64,000 bases of DNA, from the NCBI GenBank assembly GCA_029881805.1, contig JAOULW010000006.1:1-64000 (forward strand), given 5' to 3'. Each line of letters begins with the position of its first letter. Positions within the stretch are counted from its first letter, which is position 1. This document shows positions 5,962-53,241 of the stretch, one piece after another. The translations under genes were made by a program, and so were the position numbers. Below the pieces are notes generated by a model, which had not been told where the DNA came from, did no database searches, and worked only from the letters and a program-made list of their open reading frames with translations. Source of the stretch: Candidatus Bathyarchaeota archaeon. Lineage in GTDB: Archaea; Thermoproteota; Bathyarchaeia; Bathyarchaeales; Bathycorpusculaceae.

Positions 5962-5968
5962 TTAAAAG

Positions 5969-6853: not shown

Positions 6854-6858
6854 AAGGT

Positions 6859-6927
6859 CTAGCCTCCTTGCTCTTTACACCATTTCAATATTTTCCCAGT
6901 TAATTCTGAAGCTCTTTTCTCCGACAT
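6859..6927 (-). CDS. possible 22-residue leader ORF upstream of GT2
   Basis: A short ATG frame (MSEKRASELTGKILKWC...) ends 5 bases before the TTG start of the GT2 gene and contains that gene's Shine-Dalgarno. The composition is protein-like (charged amphipathic helix). It could be a coupled leader peptide or chance; no conserved motif is visible. Confidence 0.22.
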   Translation of the reverse strand: MSEKRASELTGKILKWCKEQGG

Positions 6928-7072
6928 TTTTCATTAATATGCACCTTAAATCTTTTTGTAGTCTGCTCTAACAATCTGTGTCAAGTGCTTTAAGATATAC
7001 CTGTACGCCTTGCTAAAACTGAAGATAAGGGTCTTTTGAAGATAGGAGGCAGCAAAAACAAAGATGTTTGAC

Positions 7073-8059: not shown

Positions 8060-8060
8060 T

Positions 8061-8786: not shown

Positions 8787-8815
8787 GGCATCAGTGTGTC
8801 GATGTTTTGCTTAGT

Positions 8816-8828
8816 CAAATATATAAAC
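8816..8828 (+). promoter_or_regulatory. archaeal TATA box for the GT4 gene
   Basis: The stretch CAAATATATAAAC lies in the divergent gap between the nucleotidyltransferase and GT4 genes, about 45 bases before the GT4 ATG. With the usual 25-27 base offset this predicts transcription starting near 8848 and a leader of about 20 bases. Confidence 0.5.
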
Positions 8829-8868
8829 ATTGGTCAAATGCTTAGTATGCGTAAGGTGACATTGACTC

Positions 8869-10137: not shown

Positions 10138-10193
10138 TCATGGTAAGCATTGTTTACGCCAAATTTGCTCAGCCTTCGTTGTTGAGACTTTCG

Positions 10194-11453: not shown

Positions 11454-11639
11454 TTACTTTCACAAGTGTTAGCATTCCGAGACATATTTAAGATTATTTG
11501 CAACTTCAATCAAGATTTCAAATTTAACACCAGAAAGCGCCGCGTCACTCTTAACATAGAATTCCGAAGAAAGAGAATAAAAGACAAATCGAAGAACAGA
11601 AGATAGAATAACTGGAATTATTCTTACTGAGGAGTCAAA

Positions 11640-12434
11640 ATGAAGAAAGGAAATGCCTCTTACAGAGCAAGAGGATTTCTATCCAGAGTTAAGGAAGCAT
11701 CCAAAGAGAAAGGAATTCGTTATGTTGCTTTGGCAGGGGTTAACAGGATGCGCAGAATGGTGATAGATTCTTTTTGGTGTTACTATTACAGTTTATTTAA
11801 GTCATGGAGTACATTCACGTTCCAAGGAAAAAACTACAAATATTTCTATCACAGGTATAATACAACATGGCGAAATGAAAGAGCAGTCGAAATTCCAATT
11901 ATCTGGCATATAGTCAAAACGTGTGAATGGAGAAGTGTTTTGGAGGTAGGCAATGTTCTTTCACACTATTTTACTGTCAATCATGATATTGTAGACAAAT
12001 ATGAGAAGGCAGAGGGTGTGATTAGCCAAGACGTGACTGAGATTCGTCCCTCAAAAAAATACGATCTGATTATTAGCATTTCAACTCTGGAGCATGTCGG
12101 TTGGGACGAAAACCCTGGCGACCATAGAATTCTACATGAATCCAAAAAAATCACGTACACTATTGATGTTTTAAAACGGTTATTGACTTCTAAGGGAGAA
12201 ATTGTTGTAACTCTGCCCCTCGGTTATAATCCCTACTTGGATAAGTTACTCAAAAGTGGCGAGATAAAATTTGATGACCGATTTTACTTGAAACGTATCT
12301 CCAAAGATAACAGATGGATAGAGGTCAGCTGGAAAGATGTTGAGCGTTTAAAATACAACGGCTTGATCCCTTCTGCTAATGGATTAATAATTGGCGTCAT
12401 CAAGAGTGAGAATAAAATAAAACCTGCACCTTAG
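11640..12434 (+). CDS. methyltransferase-like protein of the glycan locus
   Basis: A 264-residue protein with a basic, helical first 60 residues and a degenerate class I SAM fold: VLEVGNVLSHY near 100-110 stands for motif I, and YDLIISISTLEHVGW near 141-155 is the usual post-motif region. It resembles SAM-dependent methyltransferases next to polysaccharide genes, but the motif I glycine pattern is weak. It may methylate a sugar or be catalytically reduced. A 187-base gap upstream has no gene that I can see. Confidence 0.6.
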   Translation: MKKGNASYRARGFLSRVKEASKEKGIRYVALAGVNRMRRMVIDSFWCYYYSLFKSWSTFTFQGKNYKYFYHRYNTTWRNERAVEIPIIWHIVKTCEWRSVLEVGNVLSHYFTVNHDIVDKYEKAEGVISQDVTEIRPSKKYDLIISISTLEHVGWDENPGDHRILHESKKITYTIDVLKRLLTSKGEIVVTLPLGYNPYLDKLLKSGEIKFDDRFYLKRISKDNRWIEVSWKDVERLKYNGLIPSANGLIIGVIKSENKIKPAP

Positions 12435-12539
12435 AAAAGGCAGAAGCTCAACCATATCAAGTCAGATTCACCTCACTTCCTCTACCCAGAAAAGTATTAT
12501 TACACATTCTAACCTATCAGACTAGTCGAAAGAGAAAAG

Positions 12540-13445
12540 TTGCCAGCTGGAAAAATTTTGAAAAACCGAAAAAGATTACTGGTTACTGGTGCAAGCGGTT
12601 TACTAGGCAACAAAATAATTAAACTCGCTGAGAAAGATTATTCTGTCGCACCTACTCACAGAACCAAACCGCTCCATTCAAATTCTATAGAACTGGACAT
12701 AACAGAAGCAAAAGATGTTCGGAAGGTTTTCCACAAATTCGAACCGGATAAAGTCATTCACACTGCATCTGAAACAAACGTGGACATGTGCGAAAAAGAA
12801 AAAGATCATGCTTGGAAAACAAATGTTGACGGATCCCACAACATCGCCCTCGCCTGCAGTGAAGTTAGCGCAACATTAGTATATATATCCACAGATTACG
12901 TTTTTGATGGTAGGAAAGGGTCATACGTTGAAGAAGACAATCCGAACCCAATAAACTACTATGGCGTCACAAAACTTGAAGGAGAAAATCAGATCATTCG
13001 GAACTGCAGAAACTATACCATTCTACGTACAAGCGTCATATACGGTTGGCACCCTTGGAAGCAAAACTTCGCAACATGGGTGATAGAGTCCCTAAGACAG
13101 CAAAAGGAAATAGCTGTTGTAGAAGATCATTACAATACGCCGACATTGGCAGACAATCTAGCGCAAATGGCACTAGAGACTTCAGAAAAAGGTCTGCAAG
13201 GATTATATCACGCCTCTGGAAGTGAGAGAGTAAGCCGCTACACATTTGCAAAACAAATCGCAAAAACCTTCAACCTAGACACTAGCTTGATTAAACCAAT
13301 AAAAATGCATCAATTAACTGCTTGGATAGCAGAAAGACCAAAGGATTCATCATTAAAAACAGAAAAAATACAAAAGCATCTAAAAACAAAACCACTAAAA
13401 ATAACTGAAGGATTGAACAGAATGAAGAGAGAGGCAGAACAATGA
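12540..13445 (+). CDS. rmlD: dTDP-4-dehydrorhamnose reductase
   Basis: A 301-residue SDR of the RmlD type, the last step of dTDP-L-rhamnose synthesis (reduction of dTDP-4-keto-rhamnose with NAD(P)H). The NAD site is VTGASGLLGNKI near residues 15-26, the active-site region is YISTDYVFDGRKG near 118-130 and the YxxxK is YYGVTKLEGE near 142-151. The start is TTG. It overlaps rmlA by 4 bases; rmlC and rmlB follow, so all four rhamnose enzymes form one operon in the order D-A-C-B. Confidence 0.88.
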   Translation: MPAGKILKNRKRLLVTGASGLLGNKIIKLAEKDYSVAPTHRTKPLHSNSIELDITEAKDVRKVFHKFEPDKVIHTASETNVDMCEKEKDHAWKTNVDGSHNIALACSEVSATLVYISTDYVFDGRKGSYVEEDNPNPINYYGVTKLEGENQIIRNCRNYTILRTSVIYGWHPWKQNFATWVIESLRQQKEIAVVEDHYNTPTLADNLAQMALETSEKGLQGLYHASGSERVSRYTFAKQIAKTFNLDTSLIKPIKMHQLTAWIAERPKDSSLKTEKIQKHLKTKPLKITEGLNRMKREAEQ

Positions 13446-14512
13446 AAGGTGTGGTACTCCACGGCGGCCACGGGACACGTTTAAGACCTTTAACCCACAC
13501 CGGACCAAAACAGCTAATCACAGTGGCAAATAAACCTATTTCACAATATGTCCTAGAGGACTTGCGTAATTCTGGAATTAAGAACATAGCCATAGTGCTA
13601 GGAGACATAATGCCTGAAAAAGTGAAAAGTCATTATGGAGACGGAAGCAAATTTGGTGTAAATATCAAGTACATATATCAAGAAACGCCAGAAGGAATAG
13701 CGCAAGCAGTAGGCTTAACAGAAGACTTCGTAAATGAGGACCCTTTCGTCGTATATCTTGGTGACAACCTTCTAAAGGGTGGGATCTCAAGGTGTGTTCA
13801 AGAATTTCGACAAAAGAACTATGAGGCAATGATACTGCTATGCGAAGTTGAAAACCCACAACAGTTCGGAGTGGCAGAATTCGACAAAAATGGAAAGTTG
13901 GTAAAGCTTATTGAAAAACCAGAAAAGCCGCCAAGCAACTACGCGCTTACAGGCATATACTTTCTCAAACCAACAATCTTCAAAATGATAAAACAGCTGA
14001 AACCATCATGGAGAGGTGAACTGGAAATAACAGAGGCATTACAGCTTTTGATAGATTCGGGCTGTAAAGTAGGATATAGAATAGTTGAAGGGTGGTGGAA
14101 AGACACAGGTACTATTGAAGATATCATCGAGGCAAACATACTCGTACTGGATGAATTGGAACCAGAAATAGAGGGAATAGTTGAAGACAAAACTTGCATT
14201 CAAGGACGTGTATCTATAGGAAAAAACGCCTACATAAAAAAGGGGGCTTTAATTAGAGGCCCTGCCCTAATCGGAGAAAACACGATAATAGAAGATGGGG
14301 TTTACATAGGACCGTATACTTCAATAGGTGACAATACGAAGATAAAGAAAGGCGAAATCGAAAACACGATAGTAATGGAGAACTGCATAATAGAGATTAA
14401 CACAAAAATAATTGATAGTATAATAGGCGCAAACTCGGAAATAATAGCGAATGAGAAAGGCCCAAAAGGACATAAACTGATTGTTGGTGAAAATTCAAAA
14501 ATAGTTTTTTGA
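13442..14512 (+). CDS. rmlA: glucose-1-phosphate thymidylyltransferase, long archaeal form
   Basis: A 356-residue enzyme making dTDP-glucose from dTTP and glucose-1-phosphate. The N-terminal transferase domain has HGGHGTRLRPLTHTGPKQL at 8-26 and YLGDNLLKGG near 103-112. The C-terminal region from about 245 is a left-handed beta-helix of hexapeptide repeats (IEDGVYIGPYTSIGDNTKI). This long form is common in archaea and some bacteria, whereas the classical RmlA is about 290 residues. It starts inside the rmlD stop (ATGA overlap). Confidence 0.9.
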   Translation: MKGVVLHGGHGTRLRPLTHTGPKQLITVANKPISQYVLEDLRNSGIKNIAIVLGDIMPEKVKSHYGDGSKFGVNIKYIYQETPEGIAQAVGLTEDFVNEDPFVVYLGDNLLKGGISRCVQEFRQKNYEAMILLCEVENPQQFGVAEFDKNGKLVKLIEKPEKPPSNYALTGIYFLKPTIFKMIKQLKPSWRGELEITEALQLLIDSGCKVGYRIVEGWWKDTGTIEDIIEANILVLDELEPEIEGIVEDKTCIQGRVSIGKNAYIKKGALIRGPALIGENTIIEDGVYIGPYTSIGDNTKIKKGEIENTIVMENCIIEINTKIIDSIIGANSEIIANEKGPKGHKLIVGENSKIVF

Positions 14513-14513
14513 G

Positions 14514-14990
14514 ATGAAAAATATGATAGAAGGAGTCGTAACCAAGCAACTTAAACAGATAGCAGATGAGCGAGGATGGCTAATAGAAGTACTGAGAAAC
14601 GATTGGGAGCACTTCCAAAAATTCGGCCAAGCATATTTGACAGCGGCCTATCCACAAGTTGTAAAGGCTTGGCACAAGCACAAAAAGCAGACAGATAACA
14701 TAACCTGCATAAAAGGAATGATAAAACTTGTACTATATGATGGCAGAAAAAAATCAAAAACCAAGAACGAAATAAACGAACTCACGATCGGTGAAAAAAA
14801 TCTCCTTTTAGTTAAGATTCCACCGGAAGTCTGGCACGGATTCAAAACCATAACAGAAGAATATGCGCTTGTTCTTAATGTCCCTACAGAACTCTACAAC
14901 TATAAAGAACCAGACGAGCATAGATTGCCACCAGACACGGACAAAATACCATACGACTGGAAGCTTACGCCATGGCTTAAACATGGTTGA
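14514..14990 (+). CDS. rmlC: dTDP-4-dehydrorhamnose 3,5-epimerase, short form
   Basis: A 158-residue cupin-fold protein. It keeps the region GQAYLTAAYPQVVKAWHKHKK, where His residues fit the RmlC active site, and a second strand set with IPPEVWHGFKTI near 102-113. It is shorter than the usual 180 or so residues, so it may be a sugar 3,4-ketoisomerase or single epimerase relative. Its place between rmlA and rmlB makes rhamnose epimerisation the best call. The gene starts one base after the rmlA stop. Confidence 0.82.
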   Translation: MKNMIEGVVTKQLKQIADERGWLIEVLRNDWEHFQKFGQAYLTAAYPQVVKAWHKHKKQTDNITCIKGMIKLVLYDGRKKSKTKNEINELTIGEKNLLLVKIPPEVWHGFKTITEEYALVLNVPTELYNYKEPDEHRLPPDTDKIPYDWKLTPWLKHG

Positions 14991-14995
14991 TATAC

Positions 14996-15976
14996 ATGAA
15001 AATTCTCATCACTGGCGGCGCAGGATTCATTGGAAGTAACTTTGTACACTATATGATTAGAAAGCATCCAGAATACGAAATCGTCGTTTTGGACAAACTC
15101 ACTTATGCAGGAAAAAAAGAAAATTTACAGGCCGTTTGGAACAAGATTACATTCATCAAAGGTGACATAACCAAAAAAGAAGATGCGGAAAAAGTCATAA
15201 AGAATTGCAATTGGATCGTGAATTTTGCCGCCGAAACCCACGTCGATAGAAGCATAATAGAAGCTGGAACTTTCGTATTAACTGATGTCTTCGGAATCTA
15301 CAATCTGTTAGAGGCAGCAAGAAAATTCGACATATCAAAATTTGAACAAATAAGCACAGATGAGGTCTATGGACATATTCTAAAAGGCAGCTTTAAAGAA
15401 CAAGATAGACTAAATCCACGCAACCCGTATTCTGCATCAAAAGCCAGCGCAGAGTTATTATGCAAAGCATATTTCGAGACCTATGGCTCACCAATAACCA
15501 TAACAAGGTCGTCAAACAATTATGGACCATATCAGCACCCGGAGAAGCTTATCCCAAAAACTATAATCTACGCGCTCTCTAACAAGGCGATACCAATTTA
15601 CGGGACCGGCGAGAACATCAGAGACTGGATTTATGTAGAGGATAACTGTGAAGCCATAGATTGGGTTCTGCATAAGGGTAAGCTTGGAGAAGTCTACAAT
15701 ATTGCGGCAAACCAGGAGTTTAAAAATGTAGATGTTATAAGAACTATCCTGAAGCTTACTAGGAAACCGGAGAGTTTAATAGAATATGTCAAAGACAGAC
15801 CTGGGCATGACTTGAGATATTCGTTGAACACGAAGAAAATTCGAGAGATCGGCTGGATACCAAAAACCATCTTCAATGATGGAATAAAGAAAACTATTGA
15901 TTGGTACATGCGGAATACTCAATGGTGGATGCCAATAATAGAAAAAGAAAAAGTAGACTTTCACAAAACGTCATAG
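14996..15976 (+). CDS. rmlB: dTDP-glucose 4,6-dehydratase
   Basis: A 326-residue extended SDR with the start MKILITGGAGFIGSNF, the RmlB motif FAAETHVDRSI near 77-87, the active-site segment ISTDEVYGH near 116-124, YSASKASAE near 142-150 and TRSSNNYGPYQHPEKLIP near 167. It converts dTDP-glucose to dTDP-4-keto-6-deoxyglucose. I chose the ATG at 14996, three codons into the frame, because the Rossmann strand begins there. It closes the rmlD-A-C-B operon. Confidence 0.93.
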   Translation: MKILITGGAGFIGSNFVHYMIRKHPEYEIVVLDKLTYAGKKENLQAVWNKITFIKGDITKKEDAEKVIKNCNWIVNFAAETHVDRSIIEAGTFVLTDVFGIYNLLEAARKFDISKFEQISTDEVYGHILKGSFKEQDRLNPRNPYSASKASAELLCKAYFETYGSPITITRSSNNYGPYQHPEKLIPKTIIYALSNKAIPIYGTGENIRDWIYVEDNCEAIDWVLHKGKLGEVYNIAANQEFKNVDVIRTILKLTRKPESLIEYVKDRPGHDLRYSLNTKKIREIGWIPKTIFNDGIKKTIDWYMRNTQWWMPIIEKEKVDFHKTS

Positions 15977-16107
15977 CTGAATAAACAAATAAATCTCAAC
16001 ACAACCATCACTACAGCTAGAGAAAACTTGGTTTAAATAGGACTATTCTAGATGAAGAACTTATAATTGGATAAAAGTCTCATTTAAAAACAGCGAACGG
16101 AGATGCA

Positions 16108-17595
16108 ATGATAAAACTAAGAATAGATGTTGATTACCCTTATCCTTCAAGAATCAAGAGCTTTCTTTATACAGTTCTGAACATCAAGATAGGCAAAGAC
16201 TTTTTGAAAAATGCGAAAATAATTGCGAAAATGATTGAAAGGTCCCCAAAGGACATCAGGACCTACTGGTTTTTCACGATAAAAACAATTCCCGACGAAG
16301 AATTGCTGGAACTACTGAACAATAAGCATGAGATAGCCCTTCATGTCGCAAATGACCCATACAGAGAATGGAAACTTTTGGAAAACTCAACCGGAAGAAG
16401 ACTGAGGTATTATACTGTTCACGGAACAGCCCGTTTATTGGCACGAGTAATGTGGAAGCGATGGAGAGAAAAAACTCCCAAAATTCCGAACAACTTTCCG
16501 CTCGAATCTTTTCACAAGTTCCCCACAATAGGCTTGGACATTTTATGCTATACTAATACGACAACACAGGCCACTAAAATAGCAAAAAACCATAGTAAAA
16601 AGGGAGAAATCCTTCACATTCACCCGGAGTGGCTTTTCCAAAGAGGAAAAATAAATCATAGGGGACCCTTTTATGAGGCATTAAGGAGGATTCTAGAAAC
16701 GGACATGGAGTTCGAAACCTTATCTATTCGCAAAAAGATCTTTTTCAATATCGCTAGTGACGCAGAAGAGTACGAAAGAGATTTTGTCCCAACTCAAAAA
16801 TTCATTGAAAAACTCCAGAAAAGAGGAATAGACATTTTTACAACTATTGAAAGAAAATGGTGCCATGCAATTCCTAACCCTTCAAAATTCTGGTTGAGAG
16901 CAAGCGACAACATTGCACTTCTTCAGATAGCGAGCTATGATGAATGGTGGAAAAGCATAGGGAAGAAGACACGTAACATGGTTCGCAAAGCCGAAAAGAC
17001 TGGAATCAAAACAGCAATAGCCGTGCCCAACGAAAAGCTGGCGGAGGGTATTTGGAAAATCTATAATGAAACGCCAATACGGCAAGAAAGAGCCTTTCCA
17101 CACTATGGAATATCATTGAAAGCAGTGAGAGAAAGCGTGTTTTCATCGCAAGACTGCACTTTCGTAGGAGCACATTTTCAAGATGAACTTGTAGGATTCA
17201 TACAGCTCGTCCATGACAACGGCACAAGCAGAATAGCTCAAATGCTTTCAATGCAGAAACGTTGGGACAAAGCAGTAAACAATGCTCTCATAGCAAAGGC
17301 GGTTGAATTCTGTGCGACCAAGCAAATTCATTGGCTTATGTATGGAAGAATGGGAAATCATCCGTCACTAGACAATTTTAAGCAAAATAATGGATTCAAA
17401 CAGTTCCAGTTGACAAGATATTACGTACCATTAACCCGGAAGGGAAAAATAGCTGCCAAACTGAGGCTGCATAGAGAAGTGAAGGATGTGCTTCCACAAT
17501 CAGTGAAATATCCACTGATTCCTTTTTATAATTGGATAAGTAGGAGTAAAATGAAATTTAGACTTCGCCTAAATCCAGAAACAGCAGCACTCTAA
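16108..17595 (+). CDS. fusion: polysaccharide-deacetylase-like domain plus FemAB/GNAT-like acyltransferase domain
   Basis: A 495-residue two-domain protein. Residues 1 to about 240 look like a NodB-type deacetylase: it opens with RIDVDYPYPSR (a DVD acidic motif), has HEIALHVAND near 75 and ends with a HIHPEW segment near 172 that could supply the metal-site His. Residues about 250-450 look like a FemAB/BioF2-type GNAT fold, with DEWWKSIGKKTRNMVRKAEK near 276 and a later YGRMGNH element. A deacetylase and an acyltransferase in one chain could swap the acyl group on an amino sugar. Both calls rest on motifs only. Confidence 0.6.
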   Translation: MIKLRIDVDYPYPSRIKSFLYTVLNIKIGKDFLKNAKIIAKMIERSPKDIRTYWFFTIKTIPDEELLELLNNKHEIALHVANDPYREWKLLENSTGRRLRYYTVHGTARLLARVMWKRWREKTPKIPNNFPLESFHKFPTIGLDILCYTNTTTQATKIAKNHSKKGEILHIHPEWLFQRGKINHRGPFYEALRRILETDMEFETLSIRKKIFFNIASDAEEYERDFVPTQKFIEKLQKRGIDIFTTIERKWCHAIPNPSKFWLRASDNIALLQIASYDEWWKSIGKKTRNMVRKAEKTGIKTAIAVPNEKLAEGIWKIYNETPIRQERAFPHYGISLKAVRESVFSSQDCTFVGAHFQDELVGFIQLVHDNGTSRIAQMLSMQKRWDKAVNNALIAKAVEFCATKQIHWLMYGRMGNHPSLDNFKQNNGFKQFQLTRYYVPLTRKGKIAAKLRLHREVKDVLPQSVKYPLIPFYNWISRSKMKFRLRLNPETAAL

Positions 17596-17666
17596 CGTTT
17601 TTGGAACAGTACAAAATTAAATACTTGCACAAGATTATGCATGAGCAACAATAAGGGTTAGCGTTG

Positions 17667-19142
17667 GTGAAGAAAGAACTTAGGTTACAGTATTCAGGAT
17701 TCGTGATATTTGCGGCTAAATTGCTCAGTGTAGCAACAGGTCTAATTTTCCAATTCATGATAGCTCGCTCAACCACAGGACCTGAGTATGATTTATGGTT
17801 CAATATTAACGATTTATTAGCATATTTTACATTGCTGACAGGGGTGCTTCCATTTTGGGTGATGCGATTTGTTGTACGAGAAAAAGAAGGAGCCGTCAAA
17901 ACTGGATTACTAGCAAACTTGTCAGTCTCTGTGATAGCCACGTCCATCTATATTTTGTTCATTCCCTTAATAATTTCAGCGCTGGGCATCAGTGAAAACT
18001 ACCTTTTCTTATATTTTTTAGTTTCGATTCAGATAATTGAACTCTACTCCATGAGCCTTTGGGAAGCATGTCTTCAGGCGACTATGCCACAAAAAGTGGG
18101 CTATGGATGGCTTGTCCAACAATTTTGCAAAGTCATTTTAGGCTATATACTAATAATTGTATTTCAACAACCTCTTTTAGGAGCAGTGCTCAGCACTGTA
18201 GTGGCATTCTTCATCCAAATAATCTACTACTCTAAGCTACTCTTAGAAGAACTAAAACAAAGAATTAGATGGGAATACATAAAAGAGTGGCTTAAGGGTT
18301 CTGTGGCAAGCATCTATAATGTTATTGGCAATCAGGTAGCAGCACTCGTATTTATTATGTTATTTGTTTATGGTGGAGTAGGTGGACGAGGCAGATACGG
18401 AGTTGCAATGTCAATTGCAAACGTGATCACGTACTCTTCTTTCCTTGCGTTTGCTTTATATCCGAAGCTTCTAGCGGAGAGAAAACACGAAGACATAACG
18501 GCTTCGCTGAAAATGGTTTTGATGTTTGCTATCCCCCTAACTGCAGGTGCAATAGCATTAGCTGACTCTTACATAACACTCTTCAGAGTAGAATACCCAG
18601 ATGCGGCACCAGTACTAATCGTTTTAGCGATAGACGCTCTGATTTTGACAATTTCTGGAATCTATAGCTCTGTGCTTTTTGGAGTTGAAACATTCGACGA
18701 AAGGGCGAAAATATCATTTAAAGAACTGGCCAAAAGCCGATTGTTTTTTTCGTTTTCCCTACCATATCTTCATTCTGCAATAACCCTTCCAACAGTGTTT
18801 TACGTTCTGACAACCTATGCCAACAACCAACCTTTACAAGCAGCGCTATATGTGAGTATTATCAACTCTTCGGCTCATTTTGCAATGTTTCTCATACTAT
18901 ACTGTATCGTCCGTAAAATGGTTAGAATACAGATACCGTGGGTGAACATCTCAAAATATGTTTTTGCAGCAGCCGTTATGGCAATTATCCTGTTTATAGT
19001 GCATCCTACAAGAATATCTCTGGTTTTAGCCATGACTGTGGTAGGCGGTATAATCTACTTAGTACTATTGATGACAATCGACAAAGAAACAAGAATGTTG
19101 CCTAGGACATTATGGAAAGAGATCAGAAGGGGTCATGGTTAA
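17667..19142 (+). CDS. polysaccharide/oligosaccharide flippase (Wzx/MATE-like)
   Basis: A 491-residue, strongly hydrophobic protein with about 12-14 predicted membrane helices and short charged loops, opening with a basic segment followed by FAAKLLSVATGLIFQFMIARS, typical of the polysaccharide-transport (MVF/Wzx) superfamily. It likely moves the lipid-linked glycan built by the neighbouring enzymes across the membrane. The GTG at 17667 follows a TTG codon, and either may start it. It ends one base before the convergent TrmB gene stop. Confidence 0.85.
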   Translation: MKKELRLQYSGFVIFAAKLLSVATGLIFQFMIARSTTGPEYDLWFNINDLLAYFTLLTGVLPFWVMRFVVREKEGAVKTGLLANLSVSVIATSIYILFIPLIISALGISENYLFLYFLVSIQIIELYSMSLWEACLQATMPQKVGYGWLVQQFCKVILGYILIIVFQQPLLGAVLSTVVAFFIQIIYYSKLLLEELKQRIRWEYIKEWLKGSVASIYNVIGNQVAALVFIMLFVYGGVGGRGRYGVAMSIANVITYSSFLAFALYPKLLAERKHEDITASLKMVLMFAIPLTAGAIALADSYITLFRVEYPDAAPVLIVLAIDALILTISGIYSSVLFGVETFDERAKISFKELAKSRLFFSFSLPYLHSAITLPTVFYVLTTYANNQPLQAALYVSIINSSAHFAMFLILYCIVRKMVRIQIPWVNISKYVFAAAVMAIILFIVHPTRISLVLAMTVVGGIIYLVLLMTIDKETRMLPRTLWKEIRRGHG

Positions 19143-28834: not shown

Positions 28835-28995
28835 TTACAATTCAATCCTCATAAGCAAGACTGATTCATTAGGGTTCAGTATTCATTATCTAGTAGAAAA
28901 ACATAACCCAAGAAAGAGAAAACAAGCTGCACAATTAACACTTTAAACCAGTAGTGCCATATTGCTTTTGTAGCAAAATAGATGGACGCGTCCAA

Positions 28996-31227
28996 TTGAA
29001 AATAACAGATTTGTCACTGCCAGAATCGGTCAAAGAAGTCACAATTAGATCGGGAATTACTGAGTTGTATCCCCCACAGGAGGAAGCAGTGAAAGCTGGC
29101 GCACTCGAAGGAAGAAATCTCGTTCTAGCCAGTCCAACTGCATCTGGAAAAACCTTGGTTGCAGAGTTTTGCGCCCTAAAGCATATACTGGAAGAAAATG
29201 GAAAAGCAGTTTATTTGACGCCTTTAAGAGCGCTGGCAAACGAAAAGTTTGATGAATTCAAAAAGTATTCTACGATAAGTAAATCTGATCGTAAACGAGT
29301 GAGAATAGGCATAAGCACTGGTGACTTTGACAGCAGCGACCCATGGTTGGAAAGATATGATATAATCATAACCACAAATGAGAAGGCAGATTCGCTTTTG
29401 CGGCATAGAGCCAAGTGGATGGATGAAATCTCGCTTATAGTCGCTGACGAAGTGCACTTGTTGAACGAGGCTGAGCGCGGCCCAACGCTTGAAATTGTTT
29501 TAGCAAGACTTATGCAGATTAACCCGGACATGCAGATTTTAGCCTTAAGTGCAACTATAAATAATGTTGAGGAAATCGCAGGATGGCTTAAAGCTGATTA
29601 TGTGACAATGGAATGGCGTCCAGTTCTTTTGAAAGAGGGCATACTTTTACACAACGAAATCCAATTTAAGGATGGAGATTCTAAGAAATTAGAAAAGAAG
29701 ACAAAAAACCCGTCAACAAACTTGGCGGTAAACACGGTTAAATCAGGTGGACAAGCACTGATTTTTGCCTCAACGAGGAAAAACGCCGTCGCTCTAGCGA
29801 AGAAGTTTGCAGGCGAAATTGAAGCAGTCTTATCCAAACCAGCTAAGAGGTCTCTTAAACATGAATCTGAAAGAATTTTGGCAGCAGGTGAAAGAACAAG
29901 AATAAGTGAGTCACTGGCAGAGCTGGTAAGGTTCGGCGTCGCCTTTCATCATGCTGGCTTGGGTGGAGCACACCGCAGAATAATTGAGGATTCTTTTCGC
30001 CAAGGAAAAATTAAGGTTGTCACTGCCACACCGACATTGGCTTTCGGGGTGAACCTTCCCGCCAGAACAGTAGTAATCCAAGATTACAGACGCTATGAGC
30101 CAGGTTACGGCTACTATCCGATTAGCGTATTAGAGTACAAGCAGATGGCTGGGAGAGCCGGGAGACCAAAATATGACAAGGTAGGAGAAGCCATACTTAC
30201 AGCAAAGACCGCAGACGAAGCAGACTATCTAATGGAAAGCTATGTACTCGCACGTCCAGAACGGATCTGGTCAAGGCTTGCTGTTGAAAGAATAATGCGG
30301 TCACACGTGCTAGCAACAATAGCAGCAGATTTTGCTCACACCGAACATGGCATCTATGATTTTTTCGGCAGAACCTTTTACGCGTACCAATACGACATAA
30401 GTGCAATTAAGAACATCATAGCGAAAATTCTCAAGTATCTATACGCTGAAGGAATGATTGACGTTAGCGGCGAAAACATTTTTGCCACAGGATTTGGAAA
30501 ACGTGTAAGCGAACTCTATGTGGATCCGGTTTCAGCCGTTATTATTCGCAACGCACTTAAACAAAAACCAGTGTATCTAACTGAATTAAGCCTGCTTCAA
30601 ATGATTTCACATACGCCAGACATGGGTCCAATACTACGACCGTACACGCGAGAGTTGGATGAAATAGCGATTTTCATGGAACAACACAGAGAGGAATTCC
30701 TAATAGATGTGCCAAACGAGTGGGAAGATAGCATCGCCTACGAACAGTTTCTGGGAGAAGTAAAAACGGCCATGGTTTTGAAAACATGGATAGAAGAGAT
30801 CACCGAAGACCAAATAATCGAAAAGTTTAGAACGCAACCAGGTGACCTTTACAGAACAATCGAAAGCGCGAAATGGTTGCTTCACGCTACACGTGAGCTA
30901 GCAATGCTTTTTGGCGAGAAGCACATAATGCCTTGGACCCTTGAACTCATGGAAAGAATAGAAAAAGGAGTAAAGAAAGAACTGTTGCCAATAGTCAAGC
31001 TGGAAGGAGTCGGCAGAGTCCGCGGGCGCATAATATACAATGCAGGATACAAGACGACAGAAGAGATAAAGATTGCGAAACTTGAAGAGTTGATGAACTT
31101 GCCGCTGATAGGACCGAGACTAGCAAAGAAGATTAAAGAGCAAGTCGGCGGGTTCGTCAAAAAAGAAACGTGGGAAAGACTCGAAAAAGAAGATGCTTGG
31201 AAGCAGAAGGCTTTGACAGAATACTAA
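28996..31227 (+). CDS. hel308: Hel308/Hjm superfamily 2 DNA helicase
   Basis: A 743-residue ATP-dependent 3'-5' DNA helicase for stalled-fork repair. It has the Q-motif area YPPQEEAV, Walker A ASPTASGKTLVAE, motif II ADEVHLL, motif III LSATINN, motifs IVa-VI (including QMAGRAGRPKYD), a winged helix, the ratchet domain and a C-terminal helix-hairpin-helix (LEGVGRVRGRIIYNAG, NLPLIGPRLAKKI). I chose the TTG at 28996, since family members begin with a sequence like LKITDLSLPE, and not the earlier frame opening at 28954. It stands between the Fe-S operon and purB; its stop overlaps the convergent purB stop by 4 bases. Confidence 0.93.
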   Translation: MKITDLSLPESVKEVTIRSGITELYPPQEEAVKAGALEGRNLVLASPTASGKTLVAEFCALKHILEENGKAVYLTPLRALANEKFDEFKKYSTISKSDRKRVRIGISTGDFDSSDPWLERYDIIITTNEKADSLLRHRAKWMDEISLIVADEVHLLNEAERGPTLEIVLARLMQINPDMQILALSATINNVEEIAGWLKADYVTMEWRPVLLKEGILLHNEIQFKDGDSKKLEKKTKNPSTNLAVNTVKSGGQALIFASTRKNAVALAKKFAGEIEAVLSKPAKRSLKHESERILAAGERTRISESLAELVRFGVAFHHAGLGGAHRRIIEDSFRQGKIKVVTATPTLAFGVNLPARTVVIQDYRRYEPGYGYYPISVLEYKQMAGRAGRPKYDKVGEAILTAKTADEADYLMESYVLARPERIWSRLAVERIMRSHVLATIAADFAHTEHGIYDFFGRTFYAYQYDISAIKNIIAKILKYLYAEGMIDVSGENIFATGFGKRVSELYVDPVSAVIIRNALKQKPVYLTELSLLQMISHTPDMGPILRPYTRELDEIAIFMEQHREEFLIDVPNEWEDSIAYEQFLGEVKTAMVLKTWIEEITEDQIIEKFRTQPGDLYRTIESAKWLLHATRELAMLFGEKHIMPWTLELMERIEKGVKKELLPIVKLEGVGRVRGRIIYNAGYKTTEEIKIAKLEELMNLPLIGPRLAKKIKEQVGGFVKKETWERLEKEDAWKQKALTEY

Positions 31228-32697: not shown

Positions 32698-34152
32698 ATG
32701 GGAGCGCTAATAGCAGTAATAAATAAAAAAGGCGAAAGCTCAGTAGAAACAGCAGTTGCTATGCTTAGAAGATTAAGACACAAAAGCACAGAAGCCTTTG
32801 GAATAGCTTCACCTACTACCACGAAAATGAGGAAAGCTGTTGACCTTCTACAGAATAAGAGTTTGTCCTCGTCTATAATAATTGGACACGCATTCTCAAG
32901 AGTTCTTATGATGGACAAACCTCAACCAATAATATCTGACGATGTCACATTTGTATTTGAAGGAAGAATCTATCCAAACGCAACAGAGATTTCAGACCGA
33001 GAAATTGTTGCCCAAGAGCTGCAACAAAATCGTGAAGAAGCCGTTGAAAATCTTATCAAAGAAGTTAAAGGTGACTTTATTCTGGTAATAGCTGAAAACT
33101 CAAGACTAATTGTAGCCAGAGATGCCATGGGTATGCGTCCGCTTTATTATGGCGAGAATACAGGTTTGGCAGCTTTAGCCTCTGAACGCAAAGCTTTATG
33201 GGCTGTTGGAATAGAAAAACCTGATTCTTTTCCACCCGGACATATCGCTATTGTCGACAAAAACGGATTCGCATTCAGACCAGTAAAAACACTTGGTTAT
33301 TCAGAACCGAAGCAGATAGCAATGCAAGCTGCAGCTAAAGAATTGCAGACTCTTCTGCAACAGTCAATTAATATGAGGATTTCTGGGTTAAAGGAAGTAG
33401 CGGTAGCCTTTTCAGGAGGTTTAGACAGTAGCGTAATAGCCATTCTAGCCAAGAAAACTAGAGCAGATGTGCATTTAATCCACGTAAGCCTAGAAGGTCA
33501 GCCAGAAACTGGGCAGGCTAAAATAGCAGCAAACGAGTTGAAGCTCCCTTTACACGTTTGCCTGTTTGAAGAAGACGACGTAAAAAGCACTCTTCCAGAA
33601 GTTCTAAGGTTGATCGAGGAGCCTGACTTAGTCAAATTAAGCGTAGGCATACCGTTCTATTGGACAGCGAAAAAAGCGGCGGAAATGGGATTGAAGGTGA
33701 TGCTGGCTGGACAAGGCGCTGATGAACTTTTTGGAGGATACAGACGCTATATTGATACTTATCTCTTGTATGGTGGCGAAGAAGCGAGGAAGAAGATGTT
33801 CGAAGACACTAGTAGTCTATACGAGACTAATCTTGAGAGAGATCTTAAGATTTGCGACTTTCACAATGTTGAATTGCGCTTACCTTTTGCAACGTATAAA
33901 ATGGCTAAATTTGCCATAGATTTGCCAATAAAGGTAAAAATCGAACCAAAACATGACTGCTTACGAAAACTTGTTCTAAGACAAGTTGCCGAGAATCTCG
34001 GGCTTCCGAAACTCACTGTGAAGAAACCTAAAAAAGCCATTCAATATGCGACTGGCGTAAACAATGCTCTCCAAAGGTTAGTCAAAAAACAAGGAATGTC
34101 TTTGAAAGAATACTTCAAAATATTTTATGAAGACGCAACGAAAGTGGCGTAA
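32698..34152 (+). CDS. asparagine synthetase-like protein without the Cys nucleophile
   Basis: A 484-residue protein with an AsnB layout: an N-terminal Ntn-glutaminase-like domain (1 to about 200) and a synthetase domain with the PP-loop AFSGGLDSSVIAI near 240 and GQGADELFGGYRRY near 339. The start reads MGALIAV, so residue 2 is Gly where active glutaminases have Cys. It therefore probably cannot use glutamine and may use ammonia, take it from a partner, or amidate another substrate. The chosen ATG is sound, with no alternative Cys start nearby. The HDAC-family gene follows directly. Confidence 0.85.
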   Translation: MGALIAVINKKGESSVETAVAMLRRLRHKSTEAFGIASPTTTKMRKAVDLLQNKSLSSSIIIGHAFSRVLMMDKPQPIISDDVTFVFEGRIYPNATEISDREIVAQELQQNREEAVENLIKEVKGDFILVIAENSRLIVARDAMGMRPLYYGENTGLAALASERKALWAVGIEKPDSFPPGHIAIVDKNGFAFRPVKTLGYSEPKQIAMQAAAKELQTLLQQSINMRISGLKEVAVAFSGGLDSSVIAILAKKTRADVHLIHVSLEGQPETGQAKIAANELKLPLHVCLFEEDDVKSTLPEVLRLIEEPDLVKLSVGIPFYWTAKKAAEMGLKVMLAGQGADELFGGYRRYIDTYLLYGGEEARKKMFEDTSSLYETNLERDLKICDFHNVELRLPFATYKMAKFAIDLPIKVKIEPKHDCLRKLVLRQVAENLGLPKLTVKKPKKAIQYATGVNNALQRLVKKQGMSLKEYFKIFYEDATKVA

Positions 34153-34153
34153 C

Positions 34154-35218
34154 ATGGGTAAGACAGCCGTGATTTTTTCCCCTCTATATTATCGACATCG
34201 AACTGGCAGAAATCATCCCGAGTCGGCACGACGTCTCCGTGCTATTGTCGAGGAGCTGAAGAAAGACAAGATTTCAGGAAACGGAAAGTGGCAGTTCATA
34301 CACCCAAATAAAGCACCTGCGACGTATGTTCAACTGGTTCATGGCTTAGAATATATCAAACTTGTAGAGGCTGTCTGCAAGTCTGGAGGAGGCTTGCTGG
34401 ATTTAGGAGACACTATGACATCGCGAGAAAGTTTCGAAGTTGCCCTTTATGCTGTGGGTGGAGCACTGAAGGCTGTTGACCTTGTCATGGAGAAGAAGTT
34501 TGAAAATGCCTTTGCAGTTGTACGTCCGCCAGGGCATCATGCAGGAAGATTTCGCGCATGCGGCTTTTGCATCTTCAATAACGTAGCTATAGCTGCCGAG
34601 TACTTAATTAGAAAGTTCAAACTGGGAAAAATTGCGATATTAGACATTGATGCACATCATGGAAATGGCACACAAGAAGTCTTCTACAAAACCAACAAAG
34701 TCCTATACGTAAGCATACATGAAGACCCACGCAGTTTTCCTGGAACAGGGTTCATAGATGAAATTGGAGAAGGTGAAGGCCTAGGTTATAACATTAATGT
34801 TCCATTACCATTCGGAACCACAGATCAGATATTTCTCAGAGCTTTGGATGAAATAGTGTTGCCCGCGGTGCGCGAGTATGAACCTCAATTCGTATTAGTA
34901 AGCGCTGGTCTTGACGGTCACTACACAGACCCTGTGGGAAATCTTTCTCTATCAGCTTTGTGCTATGAAAAAGCTTTTGAGACAATAATGAAGTTGACAT
35001 CTGACACTTGTGAAGGAAAGCTGGTTGCAGTCCTTGAAGGAGGCTATAGCCTCAATTTTGTTGGAAAAATAGCCACAGCAGCTATTGCAGAGATCAGCGG
35101 AGCTAATTACGCTTTGAACGATAAGGTTTTGACCGCTAGTAAGGGCGTTAGATTGCAGGGAGAAAAGGCTATAGAGAAGGTGAAAAAGGTTCTCAGATCT
35201 TTTGAGCACACAGCTTAA
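34154..35218 (+). CDS. histone deacetylase/acetylpolyamine amidohydrolase family protein (1)
   Basis: A 354-residue zinc deacylase of the HDAC superfamily. RPPGHHAGRFRACGFCIFNN carries the catalytic His pair, DIDAHHGNGTQEVFY holds the zinc Asp and His, and SAGLDGHYTDP the second zinc Asp; LEGGYS ends the core. The ATG at 34154 lies one base after the upstream stop; an in-frame ATG at 34127 would overlap that gene. Substrates could be acetylated proteins, polyamines or an acyl small molecule. Confidence 0.9.
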   Translation: MGKTAVIFSPLYYRHRTGRNHPESARRLRAIVEELKKDKISGNGKWQFIHPNKAPATYVQLVHGLEYIKLVEAVCKSGGGLLDLGDTMTSRESFEVALYAVGGALKAVDLVMEKKFENAFAVVRPPGHHAGRFRACGFCIFNNVAIAAEYLIRKFKLGKIAILDIDAHHGNGTQEVFYKTNKVLYVSIHEDPRSFPGTGFIDEIGEGEGLGYNINVPLPFGTTDQIFLRALDEIVLPAVREYEPQFVLVSAGLDGHYTDPVGNLSLSALCYEKAFETIMKLTSDTCEGKLVAVLEGGYSLNFVGKIATAAIAEISGANYALNDKVLTASKGVRLQGEKAIEKVKKVLRSFEHTA

Positions 35219-35867: not shown

Positions 35868-37583
35868 CTAGTGGGTCTCTTCACGTAACCTCAATAGAAT
35901 CCCGTTAATCGTTGTTTGGGCCTTTTCTTTTCTGCGCTGATAATCTGCTAGAAGCTTTCGGTATGCTTCCAAGGACAGATCTCCGCGGCTGTGACGGGCC
36001 TCTATGCTTTTGATGTTGGCTTCAACTTCGTTGATCTCGGTCTCTGCGATTTCAAGTTGTCGCATTAAATCTGCATAAAGACCACCGGCAGCACGCATCT
36101 TCTCTCCGGATTCTGCCAAGCTTCTAGACAAGGAGCCAAGTCGTGTTTCCAGAGTTTTTCTCTGTACCTTATACCGACGCCTAGGGATTTTCCCCTTGCG
36201 CACTCTAGCCACAAGAGACTCTATTTCCAACACTATTTTCGTTTTCTGTTGGTATTCATCGACAAAGGATTTGACGTGTTCAGGGCGGAGACTTACTGCT
36301 ACAGTAGGCGCAGTTACTCGTGTTAGGGGAGCTTTAGGTCTTTTCCACACGATTGCAATTGCACATCCAACAATCGATAACGACCATGCCCACAATGTTG
36401 GACGGAAAGACAGCCACAAACTGTTATATTCATACGTAAGCGCAACATTAAAGGTGTCAAAGGAGATTATTCCCTGTTTTTTTATTGTCACTAGTTCTTG
36501 GAAAACGTTTCTGGCTAAGATATAGTCATCGCCAATCAATCCATCTTCGAAACTTTGTATTTTTGCGCCTTCCGGTAAAACGAAAATCACCAATACCTGA
36601 TCAATGTAACAATTCAAATGTTGAAAAAAAGAAAAGTTGAGGGTAGATTCACCTTCATTTTTTTGGCTTGTGGAAACTTGGAGATTGTATCTAACACTAA
36701 ACAATGCGGATTCTCCGTTTTTCAGTGATAACTTTAATGCAATCCTGTAACGGTTTGTCTCTTCGTCTATTGGTGCGGGGTCAGCCATTTTTCTTCTAAA
36801 CTGGTCTTGAGCTCTTGGGTTAGATGCATTAGGAGGTAACGTTATGTCAATAAAGTTTAACTCCAACTCCGCCCTGTTTGTTAGACGATATGTATCTGAT
36901 CCTTCTATTTCACCAAACTCGTTTAGCCTGATCTCTCGCACCAGCTCCTCTAAATCGGCTACAAGTATTTTGTCATCTGCTACAGAGAAGGTTATTTGAG
37001 ATGAATTATAAGTGAATGCTGGAAAGTTCACTTCTGAATAGTTGAAGGCATTGACCGTCCCCGTAACGTATGACGCATTTTCTGGCAAAACAATTGAAAC
37101 GTTACAAACATCGGCTGGTTTCGTTAAGCTAGGAAATGCTGGAAAGTTTAGGAAGTAATAGGCTGTACCATTATGTATTAGAAGATTGTTTGAAAGTACA
37201 AACAAGACCGTAAATACTTGTGGAGATCCCTGTGGAAAGTTTACTTTAACGCCGTAAAAACCAACATGATTTTCCAATGGTACATCAAGATTTACTGGGA
37301 AAACATCTGATTCATTGTAGGCAATACAGCGAAGAACATGTGGACCGTACTCATAGGGAAAGCCTATCAGAAAGTCTTCAGGCGCTTGTCCAGTAACACT
37401 TATCCTTAAGGTGTCGTTGATTTGAACATAGCCGTTGTACAGAACCTCAACAGTGTGATTTACATGTTCTATACTATAATCCGCAGCATCTGCTCCCTTA
37501 ACATTCCTGATGCAGAAGGAAATTGAGAAAAAAATTGCCATAGTGATAATGAAGAGGGTGAATGTCAAAGTTGTTTTCTTCAC
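35868..37583 (-). CDS. ribophorin I (OST1)-like type I membrane protein
   Basis: A 571-residue protein with a signal peptide (about 1-30), two exterior beta-rich domains (about 35-210 and 215-385), one membrane helix (about 394-413) and a cytoplasmic coiled coil (about 435-571). This order matches eukaryotic ribophorin I (about 607 residues), a subunit of oligosaccharyltransferase. Shared details include the second-domain opening (REIRLNEFGEIEGSDTYRL), VLPEGAK at 336-341, a TYEYNS strand pairing before the helix, and the tail pattern KTLETRLGSLSRSL. Several NxS/T sequons fall in the exterior part. No oligosaccharyltransferase catalytic subunit lies nearby. The match is by eye from memory. Confidence 0.6.
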   Translation of the reverse strand: MKKTTLTFTLFIITMAIFFSISFCIRNVKGADAADYSIEHVNHTVEVLYNGYVQINDTLRISVTGQAPEDFLIGFPYEYGPHVLRCIAYNESDVFPVNLDVPLENHVGFYGVKVNFPQGSPQVFTVLFVLSNNLLIHNGTAYYFLNFPAFPSLTKPADVCNVSIVLPENASYVTGTVNAFNYSEVNFPAFTYNSSQITFSVADDKILVADLEELVREIRLNEFGEIEGSDTYRLTNRAELELNFIDITLPPNASNPRAQDQFRRKMADPAPIDEETNRYRIALKLSLKNGESALFSVRYNLQVSTSQKNEGESTLNFSFFQHLNCYIDQVLVIFVLPEGAKIQSFEDGLIGDDYILARNVFQELVTIKKQGIISFDTFNVALTYEYNSLWLSFRPTLWAWSLSIVGCAIAIVWKRPKAPLTRVTAPTVAVSLRPEHVKSFVDEYQQKTKIVLEIESLVARVRKGKIPRRRYKVQRKTLETRLGSLSRSLAESGEKMRAAGGLYADLMRQLEIAETEINEVEANIKSIEARHSRGDLSLEAYRKLLADYQRRKEKAQTTINGILLRLREETH

Positions 37584-37726: not shown

Positions 37727-38071
37727 TCACATTCCGCCGTGTTTAAAATAGTAGTTTCCTTCTTTCTTTGATCCGAAGCTTCTTACGCCTTTCTCTCTAA
37801 GCTGTTTCTTAAGTTTTTCAGCATATTGCTTTTCTATTTCGCCTCTTTTCTCCATGTAGTTAATTATCTCCTCTGCTTGTTCTATAGTATCGGATCGCCG
37901 AATAAAGTCTATTATGTCTGGCATGTAATTAACAAAATCCTCTGATGCTGCTCTTTCTCCGCTTTGCGTGTCTGTTCGCACAGAATCTACTGGAACTGTG
38001 CTCTCGCCAGTCTCTAGCTCTTTGGCTAGGTTCGGAAACATCTTTTTTAATCTTTTTTTGTCGAACTCCAT
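37727..38071 (-). CDS. DUF2095 family archaeal protein
   Basis: A 114-residue soluble protein. The opening FDKKRLKKMFPNLAKELE, the middle VNYMPDIIDFIRR and the ending LREKGVRSFGSKKEGNYYF match the archaeal DUF2095 family as I recall it; function unknown. I chose the ATG at 38071 (the frame is open to 38089). It lies downstream of the nucleotidyltransferase on the same strand with an 86-base gap. Confidence 0.7.
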   Translation of the reverse strand: MEFDKKRLKKMFPNLAKELETGESTVPVDSVRTDTQSGERAASEDFVNYMPDIIDFIRRSDTIEQAEEIINYMEKRGEIEKQYAEKLKKQLREKGVRSFGSKKEGNYYFKHGGM

Positions 38072-38157
38072 CTCCGAACCTTCAAACATGTCATTGATTC
38101 TTTATGTTAATTATTAAGAGCCCAATATTTAAGCGTCTTTGGAAAGAAAAGGGAACA

Positions 38158-38804: not shown

Positions 38805-40055
38805 TTAACGCTTGATTATTTGCTCATATAGTTCTCCAGTTTTTTCAGCTATTTTATCCCATGTGAACTCTTCCAACACCCTGCGTCTACCATTTTTTCC
38901 AAGCCATTGTCGTTTTTCGGGACTTTCTAAAGCGCTCGTTATGCCCCAAGCTATGTCTGATGGATTGTTCGGGTCTATATGAAAACCGCACTGTTCTTCG
39001 CCACAGCAAATAACTATTTCTCGCATTCCGCTAACGCCTGCTGCCCCAACAACAACTGGACGTTCCATACTCATTGCCTCGAGGACAACAATCCCAAAAG
39101 GTTCATATAGGCTTGGGAAAGCTGCGACATCGCATGCAGCATAATGAAGAATACGCTCCTCTTCAGGGATAAATTCACAGCGGAATTTTACAAAATCAGT
39201 CAATCTCGTGGTTTTGACTAGATTAACCAGATACTCCTGCAAATCGCCTAAACCAACTATGATTAATTTTGCCTTAGGAATTTTTTGCAAGATGTGAGGC
39301 ATTGACATTATTAGTTTGTCAACACCCTTAACACCGACTAGTCTTCCAAGAAAAAGAATCATAAGCTCATCATCTTTCAAACCATAGAAATCTCTCACTT
39401 TCTTAATTTGCTCAGGGTTCACTTCCGCTGGATTGTATTTCTGTGGGTCAACACCATTATAGCTAACTTGAATTTTTTCTTTTGGGAAGCCGAGTTTTGT
39501 CAGCTCATCTTTCATGGCGTACGAAACAGTTACAATAAGGTCCGCTGCTCTTGCACCATGAAGCTCAATGTTGCTGACGACTGACGAGCCGTTTCCAAGA
39601 GTTCTTCCTTTCTCTGTTGAGTGGACGTGAAACGCGAATGGCAATCCAGCCTCTTTTTTAATGGTTATGCCACCTATGGCTGAAAGCCAATCGTGGGCGA
39701 CTACGATATCGTATTTGAAATTTTCTTTTCTAATGAGTTCGTTGACGAGTTTGGAAGCACTCAGATAATTATAGACAAGGATCTTTGAGAACAAATGAAT
39801 GCCTCTGCCCCATTTTTTAATGTCTTCTGCAAGCACATCAGGAAGCGAATCAGAAACATCAATGTGCAGCGGGCGGTGGATTTCTATGCCTCTCCAAATT
39901 TCCCGTGTGGGAAGATTTCCTGCATCGTCATTCATTGTAAAAACTGTGACGTCATTATCCGTTATGACAAACTTACGTGTAATTTCAGCCGCGTAAGTTC
40001 CCAAACCACCGACAATTTTCGGCGGATATTCGTAGACAAGCACGGCCATTTTCAT
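38805..40055 (-). CDS. glycogen/starch synthase-like glycosyltransferase (GT5/GT4)
   Basis: A 416-residue GT-B enzyme. The N-terminus MKMAVLVYEYPPKIVGGLGTYA has the KxGGL-type glycine motif near 14-19 that distinguishes glycogen synthases. The donor domain has LFLGRLVGVKGVDKLI and SLYEPFGIVVLEAMSMERP (E-x7-E). It probably elongates an alpha-glucan from ADP- or UDP-glucose, although a mannosyl or trehalose-type activity is possible. It lies away from the surface-glycan locus. Confidence 0.83.
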   Translation of the reverse strand: MKMAVLVYEYPPKIVGGLGTYAAEITRKFVITDNDVTVFTMNDDAGNLPTREIWRGIEIHRPLHIDVSDSLPDVLAEDIKKWGRGIHLFSKILVYNYLSASKLVNELIRKENFKYDIVVAHDWLSAIGGITIKKEAGLPFAFHVHSTEKGRTLGNGSSVVSNIELHGARAADLIVTVSYAMKDELTKLGFPKEKIQVSYNGVDPQKYNPAEVNPEQIKKVRDFYGLKDDELMILFLGRLVGVKGVDKLIMSMPHILQKIPKAKLIIVGLGDLQEYLVNLVKTTRLTDFVKFRCEFIPEEERILHYAACDVAAFPSLYEPFGIVVLEAMSMERPVVVGAAGVSGMREIVICCGEEQCGFHIDPNNPSDIAWGITSALESPEKRQWLGKNGRRRVLEEFTWDKIAEKTGELYEQIIKR

Positions 40056-52288: not shown

Positions 52289-52386
52289 GTTCCTCGAGTT
52301 TTTTTCAAATTCTCTAAACCTTTAAAGGGTGAAGTTCTATTTTAGCTTGAAAATACTTGGTTTGTCAAGGCGTGGACGTAGCAGTT

Positions 52387-53241
52387 ATGAAGACCAAAAT
52401 AGTCTTCTCAGAAAAATGCTTGGGTTATGGACAATATCACATCGAGGGACCCGAACGGGTTAGGCGTGCCGCAGAGATTTTGAAGAGATTTGGTTACGAG
52501 TTCATAGACCCTAAGCCTGCTTCTGACGATGACTTACTTAAAGTGCATGATATGGATTATGTTTGGAATGTAAAAAAAAATCTGGTCGAGGATCCAGACA
52601 CACCTGCATACAATAACATTTACGAATTTGCGAGACTTTCGGCTGGCGGCGCCATATTGGCGGCTGAGACTAGCGGATTTTCTATTATGCGTCCACCAGG
52701 ACACCATACTGGGAGAAACGGCGCAGCGCTCGGAGCATACACTAGAGGATTCTGCTACTTCAACAACGTCGCGATTGCCGTGAAATATTTGAACAAGTCT
52801 ACGTTGATTTTGGACATTGACGGTCATCATGGAAATGGCACGCAAGAAATCTTCTTAGGAGACGAGAAAGTGACGTACGTTTCTTTGCACAGACATCCGA
52901 ACTATCCAGGCACAGGGACAGTCACCGAAGGCAATTGTCTAAATTTCCCCTTGTATCCAGACTGCGGAGATCAAGTGCATGCAAAAACCCTCGATAAGGC
53001 GTTGAGCTCGATTAACGTGGAAGATTTCGAAGTGATTGCAGTTTCAGCCGGTTTTGACACCCATGCAGGAGATTTAGCCAGCTTAGGGTTGACTGAGAAC
53101 GGTTATAAAGAGATTGGAAAAAGAATCGACAAACTAGGCAAGCCCACGTTTTTTGTGTTGGAAGGCGGATATCAAGGCGAAAACTTAGGAAAGGACATAA
53201 ACGCACTACTGAAGGCTTACGAAACTAAAAGTGACGCTTAA
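52387..53241 (+). CDS. histone deacetylase/acetoin-utilisation family protein (2)
   Basis: A 284-residue short HDAC-superfamily deacylase. It has MRPPGHHTGRNGAAL (catalytic His pair), ILDIDGHHGNGTQEIFL (zinc Asp and His), SAGFDTHAGDLASLGL (second zinc Asp) and LEGGYQ. The ATG at 52387 is chosen over an upstream frame opening at 52357. It is only distantly like the first HDAC-family protein here, so the two probably have different substrates. Confidence 0.88.
   Translation: MKTKIVFSEKCLGYGQYHIEGPERVRRAAEILKRFGYEFIDPKPASDDDLLKVHDMDYVWNVKKNLVEDPDTPAYNNIYEFARLSAGGAILAAETSGFSIMRPPGHHTGRNGAALGAYTRGFCYFNNVAIAVKYLNKSTLILDIDGHHGNGTQEIFLGDEKVTYVSLHRHPNYPGTGTVTEGNCLNFPLYPDCGDQVHAKTLDKALSSINVEDFEVIAVSAGFDTHAGDLASLGLTENGYKEIGKRIDKLGKPTFFVLEGGYQGENLGKDINALLKAYETKSDA

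Follow-up and report, generated by a model that had tools for sequence, protein, structure and literature searches.

A 571-codon open reading frame on a Bathyarchaeal contig encodes, with practical certainty, a homologue of OST1 (ribophorin I), a subunit of oligosaccharyltransferase (OST). We consider it likely that the protein is an OST1 orthologue that acts as an accessory of the catalytic protein AglB, guiding glycosylation and tethering ribosomes. In most accounts archaeal OST consists of AglB alone, and the parts of multi-subunit OST have been discussed as Asgard innovations towards eukaryotes. The gene lies in a window of 64,000 nucleotides (positions 1 to 64,000 of contig JAOULW010000006.1 of a Candidatus Bathyarchaeota archaeon, assembly GCA_029881805.1). 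Its features, and those of the genes discussed with it, are collected in Table 1.

Table 1. Coordinates of OST1, its protein domains, its conserved neighbours and the AglB region. Positions without a prefix refer to the window.
Feature	Position	Strand	Basis or remark
OST1/ribophorin I homologue	35868..37583	(-)	571 aa, GTG start; PF04597, profile, Foldseek
Predicted N-terminal hydrophobic signal sequence, residues 1-31	37491..37583	(-)	hydropathy (~3-30), AlphaFold2 helix 2-23
First beta-rich exterior domain, ~residues 32-210	36954..37490	(-)	AlphaFold2 strands; profile match to human OST1 32-250
Second beta-rich exterior domain, ~residues 211-386	36426..36953	(-)	AlphaFold2 strands; profile match, human OST1 from 273
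VLPEGAK motif, residues 335-341	36561..36581	(-)	alignments with human ILPEGAK
Single membrane helix region, ~residues 387-414	36342..36425	(-)	hydropathy (~394-414), AlphaFold2 helix 395-413
Cytosolic four-helix bundle, residues 434-571	35871..36284	(-)	phmmer/hmmsearch and Foldseek to 8whn
DUF2095 gene, conserved upstream neighbour of OST1	37727..38089	(-)	same order in L003-L007
GT4-type glycosyltransferase, conserved neighbour	38805..40055	(-)
AglB	L061:11287-13539	plus	PF02516
Alg7/AglH-type GlcNAc-1-phosphotransferase-type gene, next after AglB	L061:13552-14421	plus	PF00953
Membrane-only OST3/6 protein, 139 aa, 5 kb from AglB	L061:6146-6565	minus	PF04756, E=6e-8

Identification of the OST1 homologue

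An ORF check of the window confirmed the exact span of the frame. Searched as a single sequence against Pfam, its product matched the Ribophorin_I family (PF04597) at 32.6 bits (gathering cut-off 25, E=6e-8), the sole family above its cut-off, and no other protein of the whole source genome was matched by PF04597. Weak coiled-coil families were also among the Pfam matches of the ORF and its relatives, and NCBIfam returned weak coiled-coil matches only, none of them near its cut-off. The family matched 29 of 33 diverse members of the class at E<=1, the best at 3.7e-18. When the ORF was compared with the PDB by phmmer, the top match was the cytosolic domain of the Lokiarchaeal OST1 of MK-D1 (8whn, E=8e-6). 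Profiles built exclusively from Thermoproteota relatives, with zero eukaryotic or Asgard sequences, reached human OST1 at E=4e-9 (six Bathyarchaeal orthologues), 3e-28 (33 Bathyarchaeal sequences) and 9e-42 (profile A3, 53 sequences from across the phylum), the last over nearly the full length of both (positions 9-551/8-607).

An AlphaFold2 model was generated from six orthologues (mean pLDDT 74, pTM 0.53) and compared with known structures by Foldseek. Ranks 1 to 8 were all human or yeast OST1 chains, with E-values from 1.4e-27 (8b6l_O) to 1.7e-17, and the first non-OST1 protein appeared at 1.3e-6, about eleven orders of magnitude behind the last OST1 chain. An earlier note, made from the sequence alone, had read the frame as a ribophorin I-like protein and had named a missing OST1 match, or a better one to another family, as what would overturn that reading. 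Neither was seen: no family other than PF04597 passed its cut-off, and the eight best folds are all OST1. Thus, the assignment is borne out, and the homology to OST1 is regarded as settled.

Domain architecture of the protein

Hydropathy analysis located only two hydrophobic stretches in the protein, one at the N-terminus, consistent with a predicted signal peptide, and one at residues ~394-414, corresponding to a single membrane helix. In the AlphaFold2 model, the beta-rich residues 36-384 form two parts, in agreement with the two exterior domains that had been proposed, and the best PF04597 stretch covers residues 295-408. The VLPEGAK motif is collinear, residue by residue, with ILPEGAK of human ribophorin I (RPN1), and its residues P337, E338, G339 and A340 are invariant across the six Bathyarchaeal orthologues. 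Human RPN1 likewise aligns with the strand preceding the membrane helix and with the tail, so that all three local likenesses pointed out in the earlier note hold. Furthermore, both profile A3 and the Foldseek alignment to 8b6l_O extend through the two exterior domains, the membrane helix and the tail.

The cytosolic tail had been described as a coiled coil; a helical tail in the human order is indeed present, but its four long helices (434-462, 468-499, 502-533 and 538-570 in the AlphaFold2 model) are better called a four-helix bundle. The tail superimposes on the bundle in the crystal structure 8whn with a TM score of 0.83 and an rmsd of 2.4 (Foldseek), and 8whn was matched by the hmmsearch profile at 2.2e-20. 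It is also the best conserved part of OST1 within the class, with a mean pair identity of 0.40 versus 0.28 and 0.26 for the exterior domains, and it carries an excess of K+R, giving a net positive charge, in the window protein and in most relatives measured.

Genomic setting of OST1

In five public genomes OST1 shares a common setting made up of purB, asparagine synthase, an HDAC-like gene, DUF2095, a nucleotidyltransferase and GT4, with some differences between loci. Two HDAC-family genes are found in the window (34127-35218 and 52357-53241), the first of which (PF00850) is the conserved OST1 neighbour. The window also holds a run of nucleotide-sugar and glycan genes with glycosyltransferases (2378-19142), including apparent RmlD, RmlA, RmlC and RmlB genes (12540-15976) and a flippase-like membrane protein (17664-19142); this run is possibly a source of surface or N-linked glycans. 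In a close relative, a Hel308-like helicase of 1219 aa (L004:14025-17684) seems to bear an intein, and the copy in the window (28954-31227, 757 aa) has none.

AglB and other OST parts

AglB and an OST3/6-type protein, the partners that the earlier note had suggested looking for, are both encoded in the source genome. AglB/STT3 (G000:C2) is a protein of 750 aa with a WWDYG motif and a PF02516 match of E=2e-42, and its gene is not adjacent to OST1. The nearby 139-aa OST3/6-type protein matches only the membrane part of PF04756. A profile of ten such proteins reached human OSTC (DC2) at 3e-9 versus 0.4 for MAGT1; judged by these matches the protein is closest to OSTC/DC2, and may be either an OSTC orthologue or a general Ost3/6 membrane domain. 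All PF04756 counts refer to matches to the membrane part (169-288). Matches to the thioredoxin part (e.g. G000:C8:51730) were set aside as ordinary thioredoxins, which are seen in controls too.

The genes for AglB and the OSTC-like protein lie <=10 kb apart in 19 of the 27 genomes in which both could be placed (hand count). Outside the class, an OSTC-like gene occurs in 44 of 72 OST1 genomes, compared with ~14 expected from the margins (72 x 57 / 297); these numbers were counted by hand and, because the genomes are related, the comparison is no statistical test.

No Ost5 (PF05251) match above the cut-off was obtained in 21 genomes, a search that a two-helix protein of ~80 aa can escape, and weak PF05251 matches also arose in E. 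coli and other controls. TRAP-beta (PF05753) was not found in the source genome. Among 21 relatives it gave two above-cut-off matches, which were rejected as TRAP because each lies within a large protein (587 and 863 aa) and because 2 of 14 control genomes also exceeded the cut-off.

Distribution and descent of OST1

OST1 was detected in 196 of 251 genomes of the class, and in 104 of the 120 good ones; five public Bathyarchaeota/Bathyarchaeia records hold it at 48-61% identity. Across the phylum, profile A2 matched 177/397 genomes and profile A3 256/397 at E<=1e-4. As weak matches may be coiled coils, OST1 was counted only at E<=1e-20, and A3 matches between 1e-4 and 1e-9, in a range where the bundle part also catches coiled coils, were dropped. 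At this threshold, 72 genomes outside the class, spread over at least 24 families, carry OST1 (profile A3, hand count), and most of the 40 out-of-class loci inspected contain a complete frame of 510-620 aa with the bundle.

In trees of OST1 and RpoB from 40 genomes, 20 of 37 splits were common to both, whereas label shuffles averaged 0.23 shared splits and never gave more than 3. These were quick trees of Thermoproteota genomes only, unrooted with respect to Asgard archaea, and the OST1 tree has many long branches. The agreement in splits fits vertical inheritance of OST1 deep within the phylum.

The exterior domains are retained in nearly all relatives. The OST1 proteins of family f30 (L122, L127, L129, L131, L134, L141) are 416-447 aa long and lack the cytosolic four-helix bundle, ending in a short proline- and lysine-rich stretch after the membrane helix. 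In genus g38 (G039, G069, G128, G048) the frames are ~520-530 aa long and the profile matches only from position ~206; here the first exterior domain seems to have been replaced or to have diverged strongly. One genome contains two extra OST1-like matches (G222:C1:206412-208103 and 317977-319155, in frames of 765 and 665 aa) beside an ordinary OST1, and these are possible paralogues. Recoding of TAG in family f5, considered on account of '1 TAG' marks, was discarded, as the match runs out close to the stop and, with profile A3, some of the marks disappeared. AglB and OSTC-like genes are found together with no convincing OST1 in several nearly complete genomes of the class (G044, G078, G084, G099, G122, G133, G148, G171 and G004). 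These are apparent lineage losses, so AglB can do without OST1.

Comparison with known OST systems

Bathyarchaeal OST1 resembles that of MK-D1 (Candidatus Prometheoarchaeum syntrophicum; 8whn) in its domain order and in belonging to an archaeon without an ER; the two bundles agree in sequence as well as in fold. MK-D1 is, however, an Asgard archaeon with TRAP subunits, and the host here is a Bathyarchaeon in whose genome no TRAP-beta was found. In pull-downs, ribosomes were recovered with the OST1 tails of both human and MK-D1 but not with the MK-D1 exterior domains (PMC11417166). Ribosome binding is thus known for the MK-D1 tail, whereas the Bathyarchaeal tail has been likened to it by sequence and predicted fold.

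Human RPN1 (OST-A/OST-B; 6s7o, 8b6l) is collinear with the Bathyarchaeal protein over its full length and likewise combines a pair of exterior beta domains with a single membrane helix and a four-helix tail, at ~15% identity in the structural alignment. It differs in residing in the ER, where its complex has at least eight subunits, the majority of them not seen here. Yeast Ost1 (6c26, 6ezn), matched by profile A3 at 9e-17 and with a TM score of ~0.60 by target length, shares the exterior domains and the membrane helix but, unlike Bathyarchaeal OST1, lacks the cytosolic bundle (the match ends at 467 of a 476-aa chain). The OST3/6-type protein, in turn, is like human OSTC/DC2 (6s7o_H) in consisting of the membrane domain only. 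Eukaryotic Ost1 is part of subcomplex I and has been suggested to prevent glycosylated peptide from slipping back into STT3; human DC2, a subunit of the STT3A complex (OST-A), is reported to link OST with the Sec61 channel (PMC7226087).

Proposed function and alternative explanations

We propose that OST1 would be exported through its signal sequence, leaving the two beta domains outside the cell beside the catalytic domain of AglB and one helix spanning the membrane. The exterior domains could help AglB to hold acceptor or freshly glycosylated chains, and the basic cytosolic bundle could bring ribosomes to dock at the Sec channel. Together with AglB and the OSTC-like protein, OST1 would make up a small co-translational oligosaccharyltransferase. 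An accessory role beside AglB is the more probable part of this proposal, and we hold it with good confidence; a role as ribosome tether is rather likely. The full-length homology, the architecture, the distribution, the vertical descent and the gene link between AglB and the OSTC-like protein come directly from the data, whereas binding to AglB and to ribosomes and an effect of OST1 on glycosylation are inferred. Against the proposal count the position of OST1 away from AglB, the AglB genomes that lack OST1, the failure to find Ost5 above its cut-off or TRAP-beta in the source genome, and the tail-less OST1 of family f30. No isolated archaeal OST1-AglB complex was found in the literature examined.

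The most serious alternative is that the homologue acts apart from AglB, as a general ribosome membrane anchor at SecYE or as a scaffold for surface proteins. The absence of clustering with AglB, the existence of AglB genomes without OST1 and the higher conservation of the tail within the class all speak for it. However, in eukaryotes the OST1 exterior domains contact STT3, and it is these domains that nearly all relatives retain; moreover, family f30 keeps them and drops the tail, which is unexpected for a pure ribosome anchor. We therefore regard this explanation as unlikely.

Two further explanations concern the origin of the gene. A recent transfer from Asgard archaea or eukaryotes, or a binning artefact, might be suspected because OST1 has been reported mainly from those groups (PMC10307638), but it is very improbable given the presence of OST1 in most good genomes of the class, its position among ordinary archaeal genes, the neighbourhood kept in five public genomes and the number of splits shared with RpoB, far above that in the shuffles. 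Convergence of an unrelated protein with two beta domains and a coiled coil could be imagined, as both beta sandwiches and coiled coils occur widely and coiled-coil families figure among the weak matches; yet the full-length collinear profile match to human OST1, the gap in Foldseek E-values and the shared PEGA motif and domain order leave it scarcely any room, and the profile and fold tests already refute it. An OST1 inherited within the phylum and working as an accessory of AglB is thus the explanation that we prefer.

Relation to earlier work and significance

One earlier study looked in vain for the non-catalytic OST subunits in archaea (PMC4973528). Asgard OST1 and OST3 have been reported previously, and further OST subunits in 2023 (PMC10307638); one sentence of a 2024 paper (PMC11417166) credits eukaryotes as well as the TACK and Asgard archaea with OST1 and OST3/6. 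For TACK, the accessible text of that paper gives no analysis of lineage, architecture or partners, so the family is already known and, there, is mentioned for TACK only in passing. The statement in the earlier note that extra subunits have been discussed mainly for Asgard archaea agrees with the Asgard reports, but must be amended in view of this mention of TACK and of the occurrence of OST1 across most of the class and in many Thermoproteota families. No paper on ribophorin I in Bathyarchaeia was found in the literature searched, nor, among titles and abstracts, one on an OSTC/DC2-like archaeal subunit. As far as checked, the wide distribution of OST1 with its tail, its vertical descent and the link between the OSTC-like gene and AglB are undescribed.

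The presence of full-length OST1 with its tail, and of OSTC-like proteins, across Bathyarchaeia and in many further Thermoproteota families places these OST parts deeper in archaeal history. On a more tentative note, with chances that we judge slightly short of even, Thermoproteota (TACK-type archaea) may possess a ribosome- and translocon-docked OST of three subunits (AglB, OST1 with a ribosome-binding tail, and the OSTC/DC2-like protein), resembling OST-A and dating from before their split from the lineage of Asgard archaea and eukaryotes. If true, co-translational N-glycosylation would predate the ER and eukaryotes. These organisms offer a testable non-Asgard system for the coupling of glycosylation and translation in cells without an ER, in which the OST1-less genomes and the tail-less family f30 amount to natural experiments on the role of each part. 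With OST1 spread far beyond the Asgard archaea, protein glycosylation by a machine docked on ribosomes may have arisen before eukaryotes did.
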